From positions 1-64,000 of the forward strand of contig NZ_VOWY01000006.1 of assembly GCF_008014645.1 (NCBI RefSeq): a DNA stretch of 64,000 nucleotides. Direction: 5' to 3'. Origin of the DNA: Collinsella sp. BA40 (GTDB lineage: Bacteria; Actinomycetota; Coriobacteriia; Coriobacteriales; Coriobacteriaceae). Shown here in pieces: positions 38,686 to 46,144 of the stretch (its first letter is position 1; each line of letters begins with the position of its first letter). The notes under the pieces are model-generated. The model had not been told where the DNA came from. It was given only the letters and a program-made list of their open reading frames with translations, and did not search any database. The translations under genes were made by a program, and so were the position numbers.

Positions 38686-39507
38686 CTAGAGGGACGTGAC
38701 GTAGACCCATTTCACCACGTCGCCGTCGTGCAGGGTATGCACGCTGCACGAATGACCGGGGAAGCTTCCGTTCACGCTGTACTTCCAGCCGCTCTCACCG
38801 CCGAAATCAAACTCCGCCAGTCCGCCGATACCCGCGACGTACACGCCGAAGCCGGAATTGCGCGCGTTGACGGAGAGGCCGGTAGCGCACAGGGCGTCGT
38901 ACACCGTAGCCCCCTCCTCGAACGTAAGCGTGGTATCAGCGCTCACCGAGCCATTGGCTGCCGAGGAATCGACCAGCACGCGCACGCTGATGGTAGAAGG
39001 CGCCTGAGGAGCTGGCGCAGCGTCGCCCGCGGCGCCCGAAGAGCCCGACAGCCCGGATGCGGCCGAGGAATCCGGAGCCGAGGCGCCAGACCCGCTCGGT
39101 GCCCCTGCAGCCGGTGCCGTCTGAGCGGCCGTATCGCTTTGCGCGGCCGCGGCATCGTCGGCCACCTGCGCATCGCCTGTGGCCGCGGCTCCATCCGCGC
39201 CCGACGCCCCGCCATCGGCTGCAGCCGTCTGCGGTTCCTCGTCCGCCGTGGTCTGCAGGAACGACGCATCATCGTGAGCCATCTCGCTCGAAGGCGGGTT
39301 GAACACGAAATACGCCGCCGCCAACACCACCATAACGAGTGAGATGGCGAAGAGCGCTCGCACGATCCGCGGCGCCCCCGCCGGACGGTCCCCGTCGGAC
39401 CCGTCTACGGTGGCACCGGGATACACGCGCCCATCCTCCTCCGGCGCCGTCCCGCCTATTGCAGACGCCGTCTCGATCTGCTCGGTTTCTTCCTGTACGT
39501 CGGTCAC
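38686..39507 (-). CDS. membrane-anchored DUF4430 protein, putative corrinoid binder
   Basis: GTG start with GAGGGGAG upstream; 273 residues. A single span (about 47-69, ALFAISLVMVVLAAAYFVF) anchors the protein with its C-terminus outside. An Ala/Asp/Ser-rich linker (about 75-165) leads to a DUF4430 domain at 172-273 (FEEGATVYDALCATGL, GESGWKYSVNG, LHDGDVVKWVYV). DUF4430 is related to the cobalamin-binding beta domain of transcobalamin and intrinsic factor. The gene follows the 1704-residue gene by 15 bases and is therefore under the same cobalamin-riboswitch-like leader. Corrinoid binding is inferred, not shown. Confidence 0.82.
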   Translation of the reverse strand: MTDVQEETEQIETASAIGGTAPEEDGRVYPGATVDGSDGDRPAGAPRIVRALFAISLVMVVLAAAYFVFNPPSSEMAHDDASFLQTTADEEPQTAAADGGASGADGAAATGDAQVADDAAAAQSDTAAQTAPAAGAPSGSGASAPDSSAASGLSGSSGAAGDAAPAPQAPSTISVRVLVDSSAANGSVSADTTLTFEEGATVYDALCATGLSVNARNSGFGVYVAGIGGLAEFDFGGESGWKYSVNGSFPGHSCSVHTLHDGDVVKWVYVTSL

Positions 39508-39522
39508 GACGCTCCCCTCTCT

Positions 39523-42500
39523 CTACTTGCGCTTTCGAGCTGCTGCGATCAGCAGCCATGCGCCGGTGACGACCAGGCCCACCAGGCCGGCAAAACCGAT
39601 AGCGACCATCACGATCGACATTCCCGAGGGCGATACATCCCCCTCGGCGTTTCGGCCGCCGGTGGACGCGGGCGCCCCGGCCTCGGACTCAGACGCAGCC
39701 TCGTCCTGCGGGCGGACGGCCGCAGATGTCGACGCAGCGGTTTTCCGCTGGCCGCCAACCGGGCGCCCGACCGGCGCCACGGTACCGCTCGCCTGCGGAC
39801 GAACCGCAGGGGCAACCGGGGCCGGCGAGCCCGAAGCGCCGGTGCCCCCGTTGCTGCCGGACGGCGCATCCCCAGGCTCGATCGGGCGCTCCGGTACGGG
39901 CGGCTGGGTCTGCACCTGGCGTTCGATCCACTTCGCATACAGCGTCATATCGGCACGTACGGGAGCGTCGAAATCCCATGCCGTGCTACAAGCGGGATCG
40001 ATGTACCAACCGTCGAAATCGTACCCCGCGCGCACGGGATCGGCGGGCCTGGTCACGGCGGCACCGCGCTTCACGTATACGCTTGTCGCGGACGTCCCGT
40101 TAGCCGCATCGAAGCTCACGCGCCACGACGGCGCGCCCTTGAGGGCGAATAACGCGCCGGAGTCGTTGATGTAATACAGAGAGCCATCGGCGCCCGCCAC
40201 CACGGAGCTCATGCAATACTCCTGGTTGGCTTCGGCGGGCGTATACAGCACGTCCACGGCGTCATCGCCCACACGATAGCGATAGAGGCCGCTCGGATTC
40301 CAGTTAACCGTGAAATAGACGAACGCGTCACCGTCCTGGACCGATACGAGGGGCGAGGACTGCGAGTACATCGTGGGAAGCGCACCGCCGTCGGTGGTCT
40401 TGCAGACCTCGTGCTCGACCGTCATGGTCTCGGCATCGATCACGAATACGGCTGCGTATTTCATGTATTTGCTCGGCCCCTGCGTAGCGGACTGGCCGCA
40501 CAACACGATCTTCCCGTTCACGATGCTCGGCGTGGACGTGCAATACTTGCCAAACGTCACGCGGGCTACCTCGGAGAGGGTGCCGTCGGCATCCATTGCA
40601 AGCTTATGAAGCGTGCCCTTATAGTCGGCGGCATACAGGTAGCCGCCCTCCGCGACGATGGTGGAACGGACCTGCGCGCCAAGTGCAAGCGGCGTGCCGA
40701 CGGTCGCGCCCGTGACGGGGTCGAACGCGTAGACGTTGCCCGCGTCGTCGCCAACAACCAGATAGTCACCCATCGGCACGGCACCGGCCCAGTAGTAGCC
40801 GCCTGCCATCGGTCGCGTAAAGCGCACCGCGCCCGTCGCGATATTCACGCTCAAAAGATAGCCCGTACCCGAACCATCATAGCTGCCGTCGCTCGTGCCG
40901 GCGTACACGTAGCCGTCGCGAACAGTGAGCGTGCCGAGCGATTGCTGCTCGACCGTCGAGCCGGACGGCGTCGTAGCGGCGGGCAGGGGCTCGGTCAACC
41001 AAGTGGTCGTGAGGGTGTCGACCGTGAGCGCCTGCAAGCGGCCGCCGTGAAGCGGCACGATGACGACGCCCTCGGCATAAACCATGCGCGCGGTGGAATC
41101 GATCGACGAGGCGAGCTTGGCTTCGCGCACCGTTGTCCCGGTTGCCGCATCCACCATCAGCAAGCGGTCGGTCGAGGCGATGTAGAGGTAGTCGCCCGCC
41201 AAGATGGGGTCGGACAGGTTCTCGCGGGCGCCGCCTATCTGCACGACCCACTTCTCCTGAGCGGCCTCGACGGGCGTAAGGGACGAGGTGGGTTTATTCG
41301 AAGTGGTGAAGCTCGGCCACTCGCTGCCCCAATCGGGACGAGCCGCGCCCGCATCGATGACGATGTCGTTCTCGGGCAACGCGGTGCCGGAGCCGTCCAC
41401 GTAGACGAGCTCGATGGTGTCGCCGTCGGCAACCACGACGTTGTTCGCGTAGTCGCTCGCGTATTCACCGTTGTACAGGAAGCTCCAGTACGACCAGGGA
41501 GCCGTATCGGACATGGCAAGGGTGCGCGACCCATCGGGCGTTGTGACGGAATACGGCACGCCGCCGTCCAGGCTATAGCTATAGCCGGCCTCGTCCAAAA
41601 GCCGAGCGAAGACATCCCATGCCGTAGCGGGCTCGTCGCCGGGGACGACGACCTCGCGCAACGGGACCCACGTCTGAGCATGGAAGGAACCCTGGGCATC
41701 GTGCTCGCTCACGCCCACGATGCGGGCGGTGACGGTCTTCGCTGCGGGGGCATCCGGGTCATCCAGGCCGCTGGTGCCGCGCACGATGAAGGATGCGGAC
41801 ACCTCCTGGCGGCTGAGCGCACGGTACTTCTCGAGAACGACAGGGTCGATCGCGGGATCATCCTTGTAGCGCGCGTAGTAATCGCCGAACCGCTCGCTCG
41901 ACAAGCAGCTCGTAATGGTGACGCGCGTGTTGTATTGGGGCTGCTTGACCAGGCGCAGCGTCTCAGATTCCACGATAGCGGGCTTGCTGGACTTGAAGCG
42001 ATCCCACTGCTCGCTTGGACGAGATGGGTCGATCGACACGGCCGCGATACCCGAGGGAACAGTGCCGCCTGCGGAGCGAACCCACGTCAGCGAGCCGTCA
42101 TCGGCGGCGTGGACGGAGATGAAGCTCTTCAGGTCGACGGTGACGGCGTCAGCGGATGCATTCTCCCCCAGAAGCGCACCGGCGTACGCCTCCTTCACGC
42201 GCGCCATCAAGGCGAGCTCGGCGTCGATCTCCTCGGTACCCAAAGCCTTCACGGCTATGTCGAACGAGGCGGAGCGGGCGACGCCGTTCTTGGAAACGGT
42301 TACGATCAGCGTATCGTGCGCATCGGGCATGCCGGGCGCGGGGCGGGCAACCACCAGGCGGGCGCCGTTGACGCGGCAGGCCTGGGAGCCGCTCGGGTCC
42401 ACGGCAAACGCCAGGGCATACCCGGAACCCGTGATGCCCAGGTCGCGACGGGTGGGGAGCTGGATATCTGCCACGACGCACGATGGGTCGACCGGCTGCT

Positions 42501-44637
42501 TCGAAGCGAAGTCCTTCAGCTGCACGCGGCCGAGGGCGGCGTCGAGCACCTCTTCGAGCGTGGGATCGGAATCGATGGACTTCACCGTGACGGTGAAGTC
42601 CTTGGTGGCAACGGGAACCCGCTCGCCATCGGCTCCCTTGTTGAAACGAACCGTCGCGGTGAGCGAAGCCTCTCCATCCGCAGATTGCCGGCGTACCAGG
42701 GTGCCATCGGATTTGAGCACGTCCTCGTTGCTAGACGACCAGGAGATGTCGGCCCAGGTCGCAATCCAGTCGTCCAGCACCAGGTCGCGGCGCGCCTCGA
42801 TGGTATCAAGCTCGTTGTTCGCCGAACCGCCTTCGTAGGCCACGAGAGACGAGGCGCGCAGCTCATCGGCGACGAGCTGCTCCAAGCGCTGCTGGACGCG
42901 GTCCATATCCCAACGAACCGTGATGAAGCGCGTCCACGTGGCCGCGCTGCCGCCGCTCTCGATCCTGAAATCGACCTTGACGCTCGCCATACCGGCGGGC
43001 TCTTCAACGGACTCGGGATCCTCGTAATAAAACCGAACGGCGCCGTTGCGCTCGCCGGGAGCGGACGAGACGGTCGCACCGCCGGCGCCCTCGGTAGCCG
43101 CGATAACGCTCACCGTTGCCGCAGGATAGCCCAAGCGAGCAAGCTCCCGTTCGACCAGATCGCGGACGTTCTCGCTTTCACCGAAAACGGGCGCGGGCAC
43201 GAAACGGGCGCTATCGAGCGCGGCGGCCGCCGCGGCGGCCGAAGCTCCGGGTAGAATGGGGCCGGCGGTCGCACGCACCTCGTTGTATCCGCCAGCGGAA
43301 GCCGTAACCTGCAGCCGCGCGCCGATCATCGTCGCATCGACATGCAGCGTCGCGTCCGTAGCGCCCTCGATGGGCTCGAACTCGCCGGCGGCTGCGCGCG
43401 ATATCCACCACTGATAGCTTACGGAGCCCGTGGGCGGCACCTTGCCTGCAGTAAGAACGGGCTTCGCGGTGAGGGTCGCACCCTCGACAGTCGTTCCATC
43501 GCCGCTCGCGACGATGGAGATGTTCGCCAGGCGCAGCGCTCCGGCGCGGCAGATGGGGCCCATCGTGTAAGAGACGGTGTTCACGCCGGCAGTAGCCTTG
43601 ACGTTAAGATAGCGGCCCAGGACGGCATCGCCCGCAGGGATGACCGCAGACGGCGCGGTGCCCAGCGCCTGCCCGGTCGCAGCGTCCTTGGACTCAAGAA
43701 GCGTCCAGGCAAACGACACCTTGTCGGAGTCGACCGTGGAGCCGTTGGTGGCCGTATCCGCAGGCGATCCACCTGTGATGGCCACCGCCTCCACCGCATC
43801 GCCCGGAGCGAGGATGGCGTCGATATCGCCGCTGATCTTGGCTCCGGAACGACGCAGCTCGACACGCGACAAGTTGATAGCGTCCACCGCGTTCACGGGA
43901 CCAGGCAGGTCGAACGAAGAGAGCGAGCCGTAGCTGCGAGCAGGGCCCCATAGCTCGACATCGCCCGCATTGACCTTCACCGCTATATAGCCGCCCGCGA
44001 TCTTGGAGGCGAGCTCGTCGGTAAGGAGGAGGCTCTGCTTGGTCTCGCCCTCTATGGGAGCGAACGCGCCCGTATCGGCGGTCTTGGTAGGCGACCACAT
44101 CCACTGGTATGTCCAACCGGACTCGGCGGGAACGACCCAGTCGTCCCAGTCGTACGCGTTGGCCCACAGCACGGCGCCCGCATCGAGCGCACCGGTGAGC
44201 TTGGAATAGCTGTCGTCCTTATCCTTCTCGTCCTGCACCATGATGTAGCAGTCGTCGTCGAGCGCGCGCTCATCCCGCGCGTCCGGCTGCGCGGGCGCCG
44301 ACGGCACGGCGGCGTCGGAGTCCGCAGCACCAACGGAGGGCGCGGGACTCTCGAGCGACGGAGCCGCAGGCGACTCGTCGGCCCCCTCGTCCACCGGCGC
44401 CGAGGGCTCATCTTGCAAAGACGGGCTCCCGTCACGCGGCGTGACGAGTTCCTGGTCGAGAGCCTGGGTGGCAGCGTCCTCGTCCGCAAGGCCGTTCGCC
44501 CACAGGACCGCCGGGGTCTGGCCCAGAACCAACGATGAAATAAGTACAGCGGTTATACACCGATGCAGCACCAGGCGCCTGCGGCGCGCCGCATCGGAGC
44601 CCGAATCGCCCAAACGAGCGTCGTGCCATCCGAACAT
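39523..44637 (-). CDS. giant surface protein: DUF4430-like, beta-propeller and InlB repeat
   Basis: The protein has 1704 residues; AAGGGA lies 8 bases before the ATG. A signal peptide (about 22-47) leads to an acidic region, then Ig-like or bacterial-cap repeats (about 130-480; GYIAVKVNAGDVELWGPARS, GARLQVTASAGGYNEVRATA) and further beta domains to about 980. A DUF4430-like domain follows at about 982-1084 (PATAWDVFARLLDEAG, WSYWSFLYNGEYA, VADGDTIELVYV). Residues about 1129-1499 are a PQQ-type beta-propeller (DPILAGDYLYIASTDRLLMV; MGDYLVVGDDAGNVYAFDPV). An InlB-type repeat follows (about 1504-1570, YDFDGWYIDPACSTAWDFDA), then a proline-rich linker and a C-terminal span with an RKRK tail. No sortase LPXTG is present. 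It lies directly downstream of a cobalamin-riboswitch-like sequence, so a corrinoid capture role is inferred. Confidence 0.85.
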   Translation of the reverse strand: MFGWHDARLGDSGSDAARRRRLVLHRCITAVLISSLVLGQTPAVLWANGLADEDAATQALDQELVTPRDGSPSLQDEPSAPVDEGADESPAAPSLESPAPSVGAADSDAAVPSAPAQPDARDERALDDDCYIMVQDEKDKDDSYSKLTGALDAGAVLWANAYDWDDWVVPAESGWTYQWMWSPTKTADTGAFAPIEGETKQSLLLTDELASKIAGGYIAVKVNAGDVELWGPARSYGSLSSFDLPGPVNAVDAINLSRVELRRSGAKISGDIDAILAPGDAVEAVAITGGSPADTATNGSTVDSDKVSFAWTLLESKDAATGQALGTAPSAVIPAGDAVLGRYLNVKATAGVNTVSYTMGPICRAGALRLANISIVASGDGTTVEGATLTAKPVLTAGKVPPTGSVSYQWWISRAAAGEFEPIEGATDATLHVDATMIGARLQVTASAGGYNEVRATAGPILPGASAAAAAAALDSARFVPAPVFGESENVRDLVERELARLGYPAATVSVIAATEGAGGATVSSAPGERNGAVRFYYEDPESVEEPAGMASVKVDFRIESGGSAATWTRFITVRWDMDRVQQRLEQLVADELRASSLVAYEGGSANNELDTIEARRDLVLDDWIATWADISWSSSNEDVLKSDGTLVRRQSADGEASLTATVRFNKGADGERVPVATKDFTVTVKSIDSDPTLEEVLDAALGRVQLKDFASKQPVDPSCVVADIQLPTRRDLGITGSGYALAFAVDPSGSQACRVNGARLVVARPAPGMPDAHDTLIVTVSKNGVARSASFDIAVKALGTEEIDAELALMARVKEAYAGALLGENASADAVTVDLKSFISVHAADDGSLTWVRSAGGTVPSGIAAVSIDPSRPSEQWDRFKSSKPAIVESETLRLVKQPQYNTRVTITSCLSSERFGDYYARYKDDPAIDPVVLEKYRALSRQEVSASFIVRGTSGLDDPDAPAAKTVTARIVGVSEHDAQGSFHAQTWVPLREVVVPGDEPATAWDVFARLLDEAGYSYSLDGGVPYSVTTPDGSRTLAMSDTAPWSYWSFLYNGEYASDYANNVVVADGDTIELVYVDGSGTALPENDIVIDAGAARPDWGSEWPSFTTSNKPTSSLTPVEAAQEKWVVQIGGARENLSDPILAGDYLYIASTDRLLMVDAATGTTVREAKLASSIDSTARMVYAEGVVIVPLHGGRLQALTVDTLTTTWLTEPLPAATTPSGSTVEQQSLGTLTVRDGYVYAGTSDGSYDGSGTGYLLSVNIATGAVRFTRPMAGGYYWAGAVPMGDYLVVGDDAGNVYAFDPVTGATVGTPLALGAQVRSTIVAEGGYLYAADYKGTLHKLAMDADGTLSEVARVTFGKYCTSTPSIVNGKIVLCGQSATQGPSKYMKYAAVFVIDAETMTVEHEVCKTTDGGALPTMYSQSSPLVSVQDGDAFVYFTVNWNPSGLYRYRVGDDAVDVLYTPAEANQEYCMSSVVAGADGSLYYINDSGALFALKGAPSWRVSFDAANGTSATSVYVKRGAAVTRPADPVRAGYDFDGWYIDPACSTAWDFDAPVRADMTLYAKWIERQVQTQPPVPERPIEPGDAPSGSNGGTGASGSPAPVAPAVRPQASGTVAPVGRPVGGQRKTAASTSAAVRPQDEAASESEAGAPASTGGRNAEGDVSPSGMSIVMVAIGFAGLVGLVVTGAWLLIAAARKRK

Positions 44638-44674
44638 AGCGGATCCCTTCTATCCAGAGCCACGCGCCTGCGCG

Positions 44675-44853
44675 CGCAGATGGGAGGCGATCCGGCTGAG
44701 CAATTCGCCCCCATGAACGCCGCCCGATCTACGACGTTTACACCATGGACGCTTGCATCACGGTTACTGGTACAGCTGGGGATTCACACCCCTATTCTCC
44801 CAAGCCAGCCCCATCGGGAGGCGAGCTCGTGCGTCTCCGCACCACCATCTTGG
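44675..44853 (-). promoter_or_regulatory. probable cobalamin riboswitch
   Basis: On the minus strand the core reads GGGGTGTGAATCCCCAGCTG followed by TACCAGTAACCGTGATG. This matches the B12-element consensus GGTG-n-aAatCC-n-AGCtG-n-CCCGcAACtGTgA. A second conserved part, AGCCGGATCGCCTCCCATCT, stands near the 3' end (about 44678-44697) and matches the downstream B12-box region. A closing helix of AGATGG (44845-44850) with CCATCT (44678-44683) is possible. The element lies 38 bases before the ATG at 44637. A small GGAT/ATCC hairpin around the ribosome-binding site would suit translational control. Confidence 0.75.
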
Positions 44854-44929
44854 CCATAAGTTCATTCATCCTAACATAGCGCCGATGCGATCTTGTGCGC
44901 ACCGCTACGCGATATCGCAGCTGTAAGCC

Positions 44930-45067
44930 TAACCTTAAAGATGAACTTGAAACTCTACAGCTGCTCCACATTTCAACAGACGCGCAGGTACAACCTATCC
45001 TAAACCTTCAACTTGACCCTTAAACATTGTCTAAGGTTCAAGTTCAACTCTAAACTTGCGCTATACT
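44930..45067 (+). promoter_or_regulatory. promoter region with repeated AACTTGA motifs
   Basis: TATACT at 45062-45067 is a good -10 for the gene at 45107. Upstream, AT-rich motifs of the form CTAAAC/ACCTT...AACTTGA recur (about 44932-44958, 45000-45025 and, inverted, 45030-45057, AAGGTTCAAGTT). A TTCAAG at 45037-45042 is a possible -35 with 19-bp spacing. The repeats look like multiple sites for one regulator. With the riboswitch they fill most of the 469-base gap between divergent genes. Confidence 0.45.
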
Positions 45068-45106: not shown

Positions 45107-46144
45107 ATGCACGATTTTGGACACGCTCGCCGGGCGCTCGTTGTGGGCGCGGCCCTTACCGTGGCCCTCTCGGGCACCGCGCTGGCCCCGCATGGAGCAT
45201 ATGCCGCCACCCAGGCCACCGAGGCCAAGCTCAGCGAAACACAGAAGAAGGTCGAGCAATCCGCAGCCGCGTACGACGAGGCGTCGAAGAACGCCAGCGC
45301 GCTGCAGGCGAAGATCGATGAGACCGCCGCACGCATAGCCGAGCTCGAGGACCGGCTTCCCGCCCTTCAGAAAAAGGCCGGTATCGCCATGCGCGATATG
45401 TATAAATCAAACCATGCCGGCAACAGCTTCATGAGCTTCCTCTTCGGGTCGCAGACGCTTGACGACCTCATCACCACGATGGCCTACCGCGACCACGTGC
45501 AAGAGTCCAACCTGGACGCTCTGAAGGCGTTGGACGCCGCGCAGGGCAACCTTGAAAAGCAGAAAATCGAGCTCGAGCAGGCCAAGGCCAAGGCCGAAAG
45601 CGAAACCAGGATCGCCGAGCAGGCGCTACAGGAGGCCCAGGCCCTGCGCGAGCAGGCGCAGCAGCAGGCCGACGCCGAAGCGGCCGCCGAGCTCGCCGAG
45701 CTTCAGCGGGCTGCTCAGAGCGCGCCCGCGGATGCCCCCCTGCCCGCCGCCCCCGGTGCCGACGGCGTAGACTGGGGCTCCGATCAGGCCGCGTTCGTAG
45801 CCGAGTGGTCGGCGCGTATCGATGCCTACCTTGCCGGCTCACCGCTCGAGGGCCAGGGTGCCACCTTCGCCGCCGCCGCGTGGAAGTACGGCGTCGACCC
45901 CCGTTGGTCCCCCGCCATCTCCAACACCGAGAGTTCAAAAGGCCGCTACTGCTTCCGCGATTTCAACGCCTGGGGCTGGGGTTCCATGGATTTCGACAGC
46001 TGGGAACAGGCTATCGACACGCACGTGCGCGGACTGGCGCGCGGCTACGGCTACACCATCAGCGTCGAGGCGGCGAAGAAGTACTGCCCGCCCAACTGGT
46101 ACCACTGGTACACCACGACGCTCTCCGAGATGAACCGCATCTAA
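45107..46144 (+). CDS. secreted peptidoglycan hydrolase, PcsB-like coiled coil plus lysozyme-like domain
   Basis: The protein has 345 residues; GGGATG stands before the ATG. The signal peptide is about 1-34 (LAPHGAYA). Residues 36-205 form a long coiled coil like that of PcsB/CwlO proteins (KLSETQKKVEQSAAAYDEAS; MYKSNHAGNSFMSFLFGSQT). In such proteins this region controls the enzyme, often through FtsEX. After an Ala/Pro linker, residues about 235-345 resemble a lysozyme/glucosaminidase-type domain (AAAWKYGVDPRWSPAISNTE with a catalytic-type Glu; CFRDFNAWGWGSM). It probably cleaves peptidoglycan glycan strands during growth or division. The coiled coil is certain, the enzyme class less so. 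Confidence 0.82.
   Translation: MHDFGHARRALVVGAALTVALSGTALAPHGAYAATQATEAKLSETQKKVEQSAAAYDEASKNASALQAKIDETAARIAELEDRLPALQKKAGIAMRDMYKSNHAGNSFMSFLFGSQTLDDLITTMAYRDHVQESNLDALKALDAAQGNLEKQKIELEQAKAKAESETRIAEQALQEAQALREQAQQQADAEAAAELAELQRAAQSAPADAPLPAAPGADGVDWGSDQAAFVAEWSARIDAYLAGSPLEGQGATFAAAAWKYGVDPRWSPAISNTESSKGRYCFRDFNAWGWGSMDFDSWEQAIDTHVRGLARGYGYTISVEAAKKYCPPNWYHWYTTTLSEMNRI

Follow-up and report, generated by a model that had tools for sequence, protein, structure and literature searches.

The window analyzed here is a stretch of 64,000 nucleotides from Collinsella sp. BA40 (contig NZ_VOWY01000006.1, positions 1 to 64,000). On its minus strand, a conserved leader precedes two genes for putative surface proteins with DUF4430 or DUF4430-like domains. 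This locus raises the question of whether the leader is a cobalamin riboswitch and whether the two proteins capture corrinoids. DUF4430 is still catalogued without a function, despite a prediction of B12 scavenging made in 2007. That work described transcobalamin-like SLBB surface proteins of Gram-positive bacteria, with propeller fusions, paired paralogues, and CbiO/CbiQ operons (PMC1796856). The preferred reading, given a probability of roughly 85%, takes the leader for a divergent Coriobacteriales riboswitch of the cobalamin (corrinoid) type that controls two transcobalamin-type surface proteins for corrinoid capture.

Location and sequence of the leader

The leader and the elements between it and the first gene are as follows.

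44856-44676, minus strand: cobalamin-riboswitch-like aptamer, conserved element of 181 nt (alignment of 32 relatives with covariation, leave-out model)
44850-44845, minus strand: P1 5′ arm AGATGG, pairing with CCATCT; two-sided changes at 6/6 pairs, 99.5% paired
44829..44842, minus strand: extra hairpin GTGCG-GAGA-CGCAC in the P1-P3 interval; two-sided changes at 3/5 pairs, 98.1% paired
44802..44828, minus strand: second variable hairpin 5′ of P3; two-sided changes at 5/5 pairs, 92.8% paired
44799..44801, minus strand: P3 5′ strand GGG, pairing with CCT at 44687-44685; two-sided changes at 2/3 pairs
44777..44793, minus strand: P5 hairpin AGGGGTGTGAATCCCCA with L5 (covariation), resembling RF00174 GGUGcaAauCC and the RF01689 P5 region
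44765..44774, minus strand: P4-like hairpin TGTACCAGTA; middle pair A-U, G-U, or G-C across relatives
44761..44763, minus strand: P6 5′ strand CCG, pairing with CGG at 44694-44692; invariant in 32/32
44700..44756, minus strand: peripheral arm with closing helix P7 (GCA/TGC); two-sided changes at 3/3 P7 pairs
44697-44686, minus strand: B12-box equivalent AGCCGGATCGCC, 3′ of the peripheral arm, aligning with RF00174 AGCCAGGAGACC in relatives
44692..44694, minus strand: P6 3′ strand CGG (alignment and sequence)
44683-44678, minus strand: P1 3′ arm CCATCT (covariation and sequence)
44651-44645, minus strand: Shine-Dalgarno AGAAGGG (sequence)
44628..44644, minus strand: start-codon hairpin ATCCG-CTATGTT-CGGAT, the codon being part of the loop (half-swap test among leaders)

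The core sequence of the leader is CAGTAACC. The strings on which the initial annotation had based its riboswitch call were found as quoted on the minus strand, with GGTGTGAATCC at 44790-44780, CAGTAACCGTGA at 44769-44758, and AGCCGGATCGCC at 44697-44686. GGTGTGAATCC and CAGTAACCGTGA have one exact match each within the window. Taken alone, with two mismatches allowed, they are not above chance in the window, whereas the whole element is. The leader was also described as lying 38 bases before a giant surface-protein gene. It does lie closely before that gene, but the gap between the end of P1 (44678) and the gene 1 ATG (44637) measures 40 bases.

Upstream, between the leader and a divergent gene at 45107, window positions 44926-45062 are low in GC and contain three imperfect 23-nt repeats. 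An inverted repeat of 20+20 nt lies at 45007-45047 inside this low-GC stretch.

Covariation and common fold

Thirty-two distinct leaders from the same family (Collinsella, Enorma, and allies) were aligned without the use of structure. Helices were drawn from this alignment together with the RF01689 and RF00174 alignments, from sequences known beforehand and with relatedness uncorrected; on this basis, 97.1% of cells are paired in the common fold, and two-sided changes occur at 21 of 33 pairs (131 cells). None of the shuffle controls attained the observed pairing or two-sided-change values. When partners were slid by 1–3 columns, pairing fell to 37–46% and two-sided cells to 10–18. Helices P1, P3, P4, P5, and P7 have two-sided changes among the 32 sequences, and P6 is paired and invariant. 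P1 variants include AGAUGG/CCAUCU, GACAGA/UCUGUC, GGCAGA/UCUGCC, and CGAGAG/CUCUCG. The minus-strand leader at 44856-44676 is a genuine structured RNA.

Two covariance models were built from these leaders, R1 with the window copy included and R2 with the window copy and its nearest relative left out. R1 found no second copy in the genome, and the remaining matches, at 12.7 and 10.5 bits, are noise. A partial leader-like DNA match at G000:C4:80214 was considered and is no riboswitch according to R1.

Relation to known riboswitches

At gathering thresholds, Rfam gave no match anywhere in the window. A permissive search matched AdoCbl-II (RF01689) to the window copy at 27.6 bits (E 3.1e-4; cut-off 36.5) and gave no RF00174 match to that copy. 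The RF01689 cut-off is passed by 7 of the 67 family genomes and by nine matches in loci of the wider order outside the family. No family copy at the leader locus exceeds the RF00174 cut-off, the best reaching 30.7 of the 31.5 bits needed. The significant covariance hit that the initial annotation had proposed as a check was therefore obtained with relatives and with R2, but not with the window copy against the curated threshold. Neither of the signs named there as counting against a riboswitch, no covariance hit and an unpaired P3-P6 core, was seen; the core pairs and covaries, and relatives pass the AdoCbl-II threshold.

In the RF01689 search across the family, the window copy scored lowest of 58 matches (15.9 bits), as might a decayed riboswitch that has lost its function. 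Such decay is highly improbable, since the copy retains 32 of the 33 consensus pairs (the exception being the outermost P5 pair, A-A), all invariant columns, the ribosome-binding site, and the start-codon hairpin. It also scores 150.9 bits (E 3e-34) under R2, from which it was excluded; the next-best match in the window scores 6.2 bits.

The leader resembles AdoCbl-II in hairpins P5, P4, and P6 and in the 3′ closing segment, and differs in two added hairpins 5′ of P3 and a long P7-closed arm. The Rfam alignment mis-registers P1 here, placing it 35 bases too late; covariation puts P1 at 44850-44845 with 44683-44678. Relatives align over their full length with the cobalamin riboswitch RF00174, P3 and the AGCC...CC box included, although the family's leader copies all score below its cut-off. 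In this alignment the leader P3 GGG/CCT is a near-equivalent of the RF00174 GGG/CCU, and the AGYCGGAUCGCC box of the leaders is equivalent to AGCCAGGAGACC. The core shared with the cobalamin clan comprises a GG-rich strand before AAU, P5 with GGUG..AA..CC, U-R-U ACCA G-Y-A, and ACCGU. Other cobalamin riboswitches have an L5-L13 kissing interaction; inspection of 50 leaders by eye revealed no complementary loop for it, though a CCAG/CUGG match is present and invariant.

Judged by homology and architecture, the leader is assigned to the cobalamin riboswitch clan, of which it is a non-member by Rfam threshold. It is called divergent because the window copy misses the Rfam cut-off and only 7 of the 67 family genomes pass. 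A protein-bound structured RNA that is no riboswitch, with a convergent likeness to cobalamin riboswitches, could also account for so few family genomes passing the threshold, and ligand binding is a prediction. This reading is given very little credence, since relatives beyond the family pass RF01689, the core sequence belongs to the cobalamin clan, and the target genes are B12-carrier-like. With assignment to the clan preferred, a large block of riboswitches mostly escapes standard RNA models.

Two other arrangements were recorded. Three close relatives have a second, canonical RF00174 riboswitch (47–48 bits) on a different contig (G036:C13:46020-46146, G037:C19:16298-16424, and G039:C2:31112-31238). 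A genome of another family has two tandem AdoCbl-II-type riboswitches before one gene region (L159:11543-11979, minus strand).

Expression platform

A hairpin whose loop carries the start codon is present in the window and in most relatives. Its stem sequence varies by species, being AUCCG-CUAUGUU-CGGAU here and UCCGAU-AUG-AUCGGA, GAGCC-GGCAU-GGCUC, CACCU-AUGA-AGGUG, or AUCUG-CAUGCU-CAGAU elsewhere. It was evaluated on deduplicated leaders with start codons placed by hand. The stem score averaged 10.3 with the native halves and 7.8 (sd 0.7) once 3′ halves were swapped among leaders, and 0 of 2,000 swaps attained the observed mean. Stem scores of leaders also exceeded those of control start codons (p 0.002). 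Because the start codon lies inside this second covarying hairpin, translational control is suggested. No terminator-like site was found in the interval between aptamer and ATG.

Counting against the preferred reading, folding of the window leader alone with the aptamer enforced gave no clear change in how accessible the ribosome-binding site is. The GGRG of the J3/4 strand and a CYCU(GG) upstream of the Shine-Dalgarno agree as purine to pyrimidine in 47 of 50 leaders, a count that is dominated by near-identical C. aerofaciens copies and includes exceptions. These two segments could pair with each other as an alternative state of the expression platform.

Cobalamin riboswitches are usually OFF switches, and by analogy the ligand-favored state here would be OFF. 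When corrinoid is plentiful in the cell, the aptamer would fold around it, and structures hiding the ribosome-binding site and start codon would be favored. When corrinoid is scarce, translation of both surface proteins would rise. On the cell exterior these proteins would present beta-grasp domains of the transcobalamin type, in one case next to a beta-propeller, and with them capture corrinoids to be imported.

Downstream genes

The two genes and the gene 1 domains are as follows.

39523..44637, minus strand: gene 1, 1704-aa surface protein (domain and structure analyses)
41380..41745, minus strand: gene 1 DUF4430-like domain, residues 965-1086 (Pfam and profile comparison)
40132..41274, minus strand: gene 1 PQQ/BamB-type beta-propeller (predicted model and structural matches)
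38686..39507, minus strand: gene 2, 273-aa protein with GTG start (Pfam and predicted structure)

Genes 1 and 2 are on the same strand and 15 bases apart, and co-transcription is therefore likely. Both had been annotated as encoding DUF4430 or DUF4430-like domains. For gene 2 the assignment is clear, with a Pfam PF14478 match of 46 bits (E 7e-12) above the cut-off of 23.8. Gene 1 falls just below that cut-off, at 18.7 bits for the whole protein and 23.3 for the isolated domain, but profile comparison of its domain with that of gene 2 confirmed the assignment (98.1% probability, E 6.7e-14).

Gene 2 has one predicted membrane helix (residues 47-69 in the model) and a C-terminal DUF4430 domain. 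Its sequence alone found no match in the PDB, and a profile search found 3u7z (E 3e-5). The predicted fold of residues 166-273 best matches haptocorrin, transcobalamin, and intrinsic factor (Z 14–16); the next matches, of other folds, reach 8.4. The gene 2 model superimposes on the beta domain of these carriers at an rmsd of 1.5–2.3 over 96–104 residues, whereas identity is 12–20% and the alpha toroid of the animal carriers was not found here. The proposed kinship of DUF4430 with transcobalamin thus agrees with the predicted fold. The suggestion that RNA control and protein fold independently point to corrinoids is likewise supported, on the RNA side by the covariation of the aptamer core and the Rfam-passing relatives.

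An RNA of cobalamin-clan architecture might instead sense mainly another ligand (a corrinoid precursor, e.g., cobinamide, or another tetrapyrrole), with the surface proteins capturing the same ligand. The distance of the window copy from the Rfam consensus fits this, as does an argument, in a reviewer exchange in PMC1796856, that the transcobalamin-like SLBB clade binds beyond B12. It is considered unlikely, since the GGUG-AA-CC and ACCAG-AACCGU core and the B12 box are preserved and the predicted fold of the gene 2 domain resembles B12 carriers above all else. A corrinoid precursor would, moreover, be a variant of the preferred reading and not its opposite.

Gene 1 encodes a signal-peptide-like N terminus, Ig-like/aBig domains, the DUF4430-like domain, the propeller, a List_Bact repeat, and a C-terminal membrane anchor. 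The model of residues 965-1507 has a pLDDT of 90.9 and a pTM of 0.90, and the predicted propeller matches YxaL (Z 39.8) and BamB (Z 33–36). BtuG fell outside the propeller's 50 best structural matches, a result still compatible with kinship. BtuG2 of Bacteroides (PMC10404256) is likewise a surface-exposed beta-propeller for corrinoid capture, a functional analogy only: BtuG2 is a seven-bladed outer-membrane lipoprotein, whereas the gene 1 propeller is BamB/YxaL-like and putative in corrinoid capture. More tentatively, and at odds clearly below even, the beta-grasp domain and propeller of gene 1 could jointly hold the corrinoid, with the propeller replacing the alpha toroid of the animal carriers. 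Gene 1 would then be a riboswitch-controlled Gram-positive corrinoid receptor of new architecture.

The surface proteins of PMC1796856 share with this locus the Ig-like and beta-propeller fusions, the second paralogue in the operon, and CbiO/CbiQ-type neighbors. In the part of that paper available, riboswitch control and Coriobacteria are not described. The open-access literature on DUF4430 and cobalamin, and on cobalamin riboswitches in Collinsella or Eggerthella, contained no report tying such proteins to a riboswitch; subscription papers were mostly outside reach. Since the proteins were described in 2007 and the riboswitch link is unreported in the literature searched, what is new here is the combination of a divergent riboswitch subfamily with a predicted B12-capture system.

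Occurrence across Coriobacteriales

By DNA similarity, the leader is present in 58 of the 67 family genomes. A pattern scan identified its carriers as Collinsella, Enorma, and unclassified Coriobacteriaceae. Of the genes lying first downstream of the leader in relatives, 29 were compared; 26 encode DUF4430 and 22 a propeller. In several relatives, genes for ECF-transporter ATPases and an S component come after one for a short DUF4430 protein.

The RNA and DUF4430 were sampled together in 63 family genomes: both are present in 55 and both absent in 7, 1 has just DUF4430, and 0 have just the RNA (Fisher p 1.4e-8, uncorrected for kinship). Outside the family, 42 genomes have both listed; in 35 of them DUF4430 follows the RNA on its own strand at a distance of no more than 10 kb, and one pair is arranged otherwise. 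Against the preferred reading, a second family of the order (f2) has DUF4430 without the leader RNA. The BA40 genome has just two DUF4430 matches and one riboswitch, all adjacent.

The recurrence of this pairing across the order makes a B12-scavenging system likely. A cobalamin-type riboswitch directly 5′ of DUF4430 genes, order-wide in gut bacteria, provides independent evidence for a B12 role of the domain. It also suggests how Collinsella and its relatives compete for gut B12.

Corrinoid economy of the host

A MetH-like protein is the only PF02310 match in the genome. CbiB/CobD had no match there, in a search for this single enzyme and not a full pathway survey. Because a MetH-like corrinoid enzyme is present and CbiB/CobD is absent, the host resembles a B12 scavenger. 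A B12 requirement has been reported for C. aerofaciens (PMC6593275). On contig C1 of the host genome (G000), at ~186.4-189.5 kb (L149:3387-6488), a FecCD permease, an ABC ATPase, and a substrate-binding lipoprotein are encoded in a row; this importer with no riboswitch nearby counts against the preferred reading. The weak best matches of this FecCD-type importer are iron/heme and corrinoid importers.
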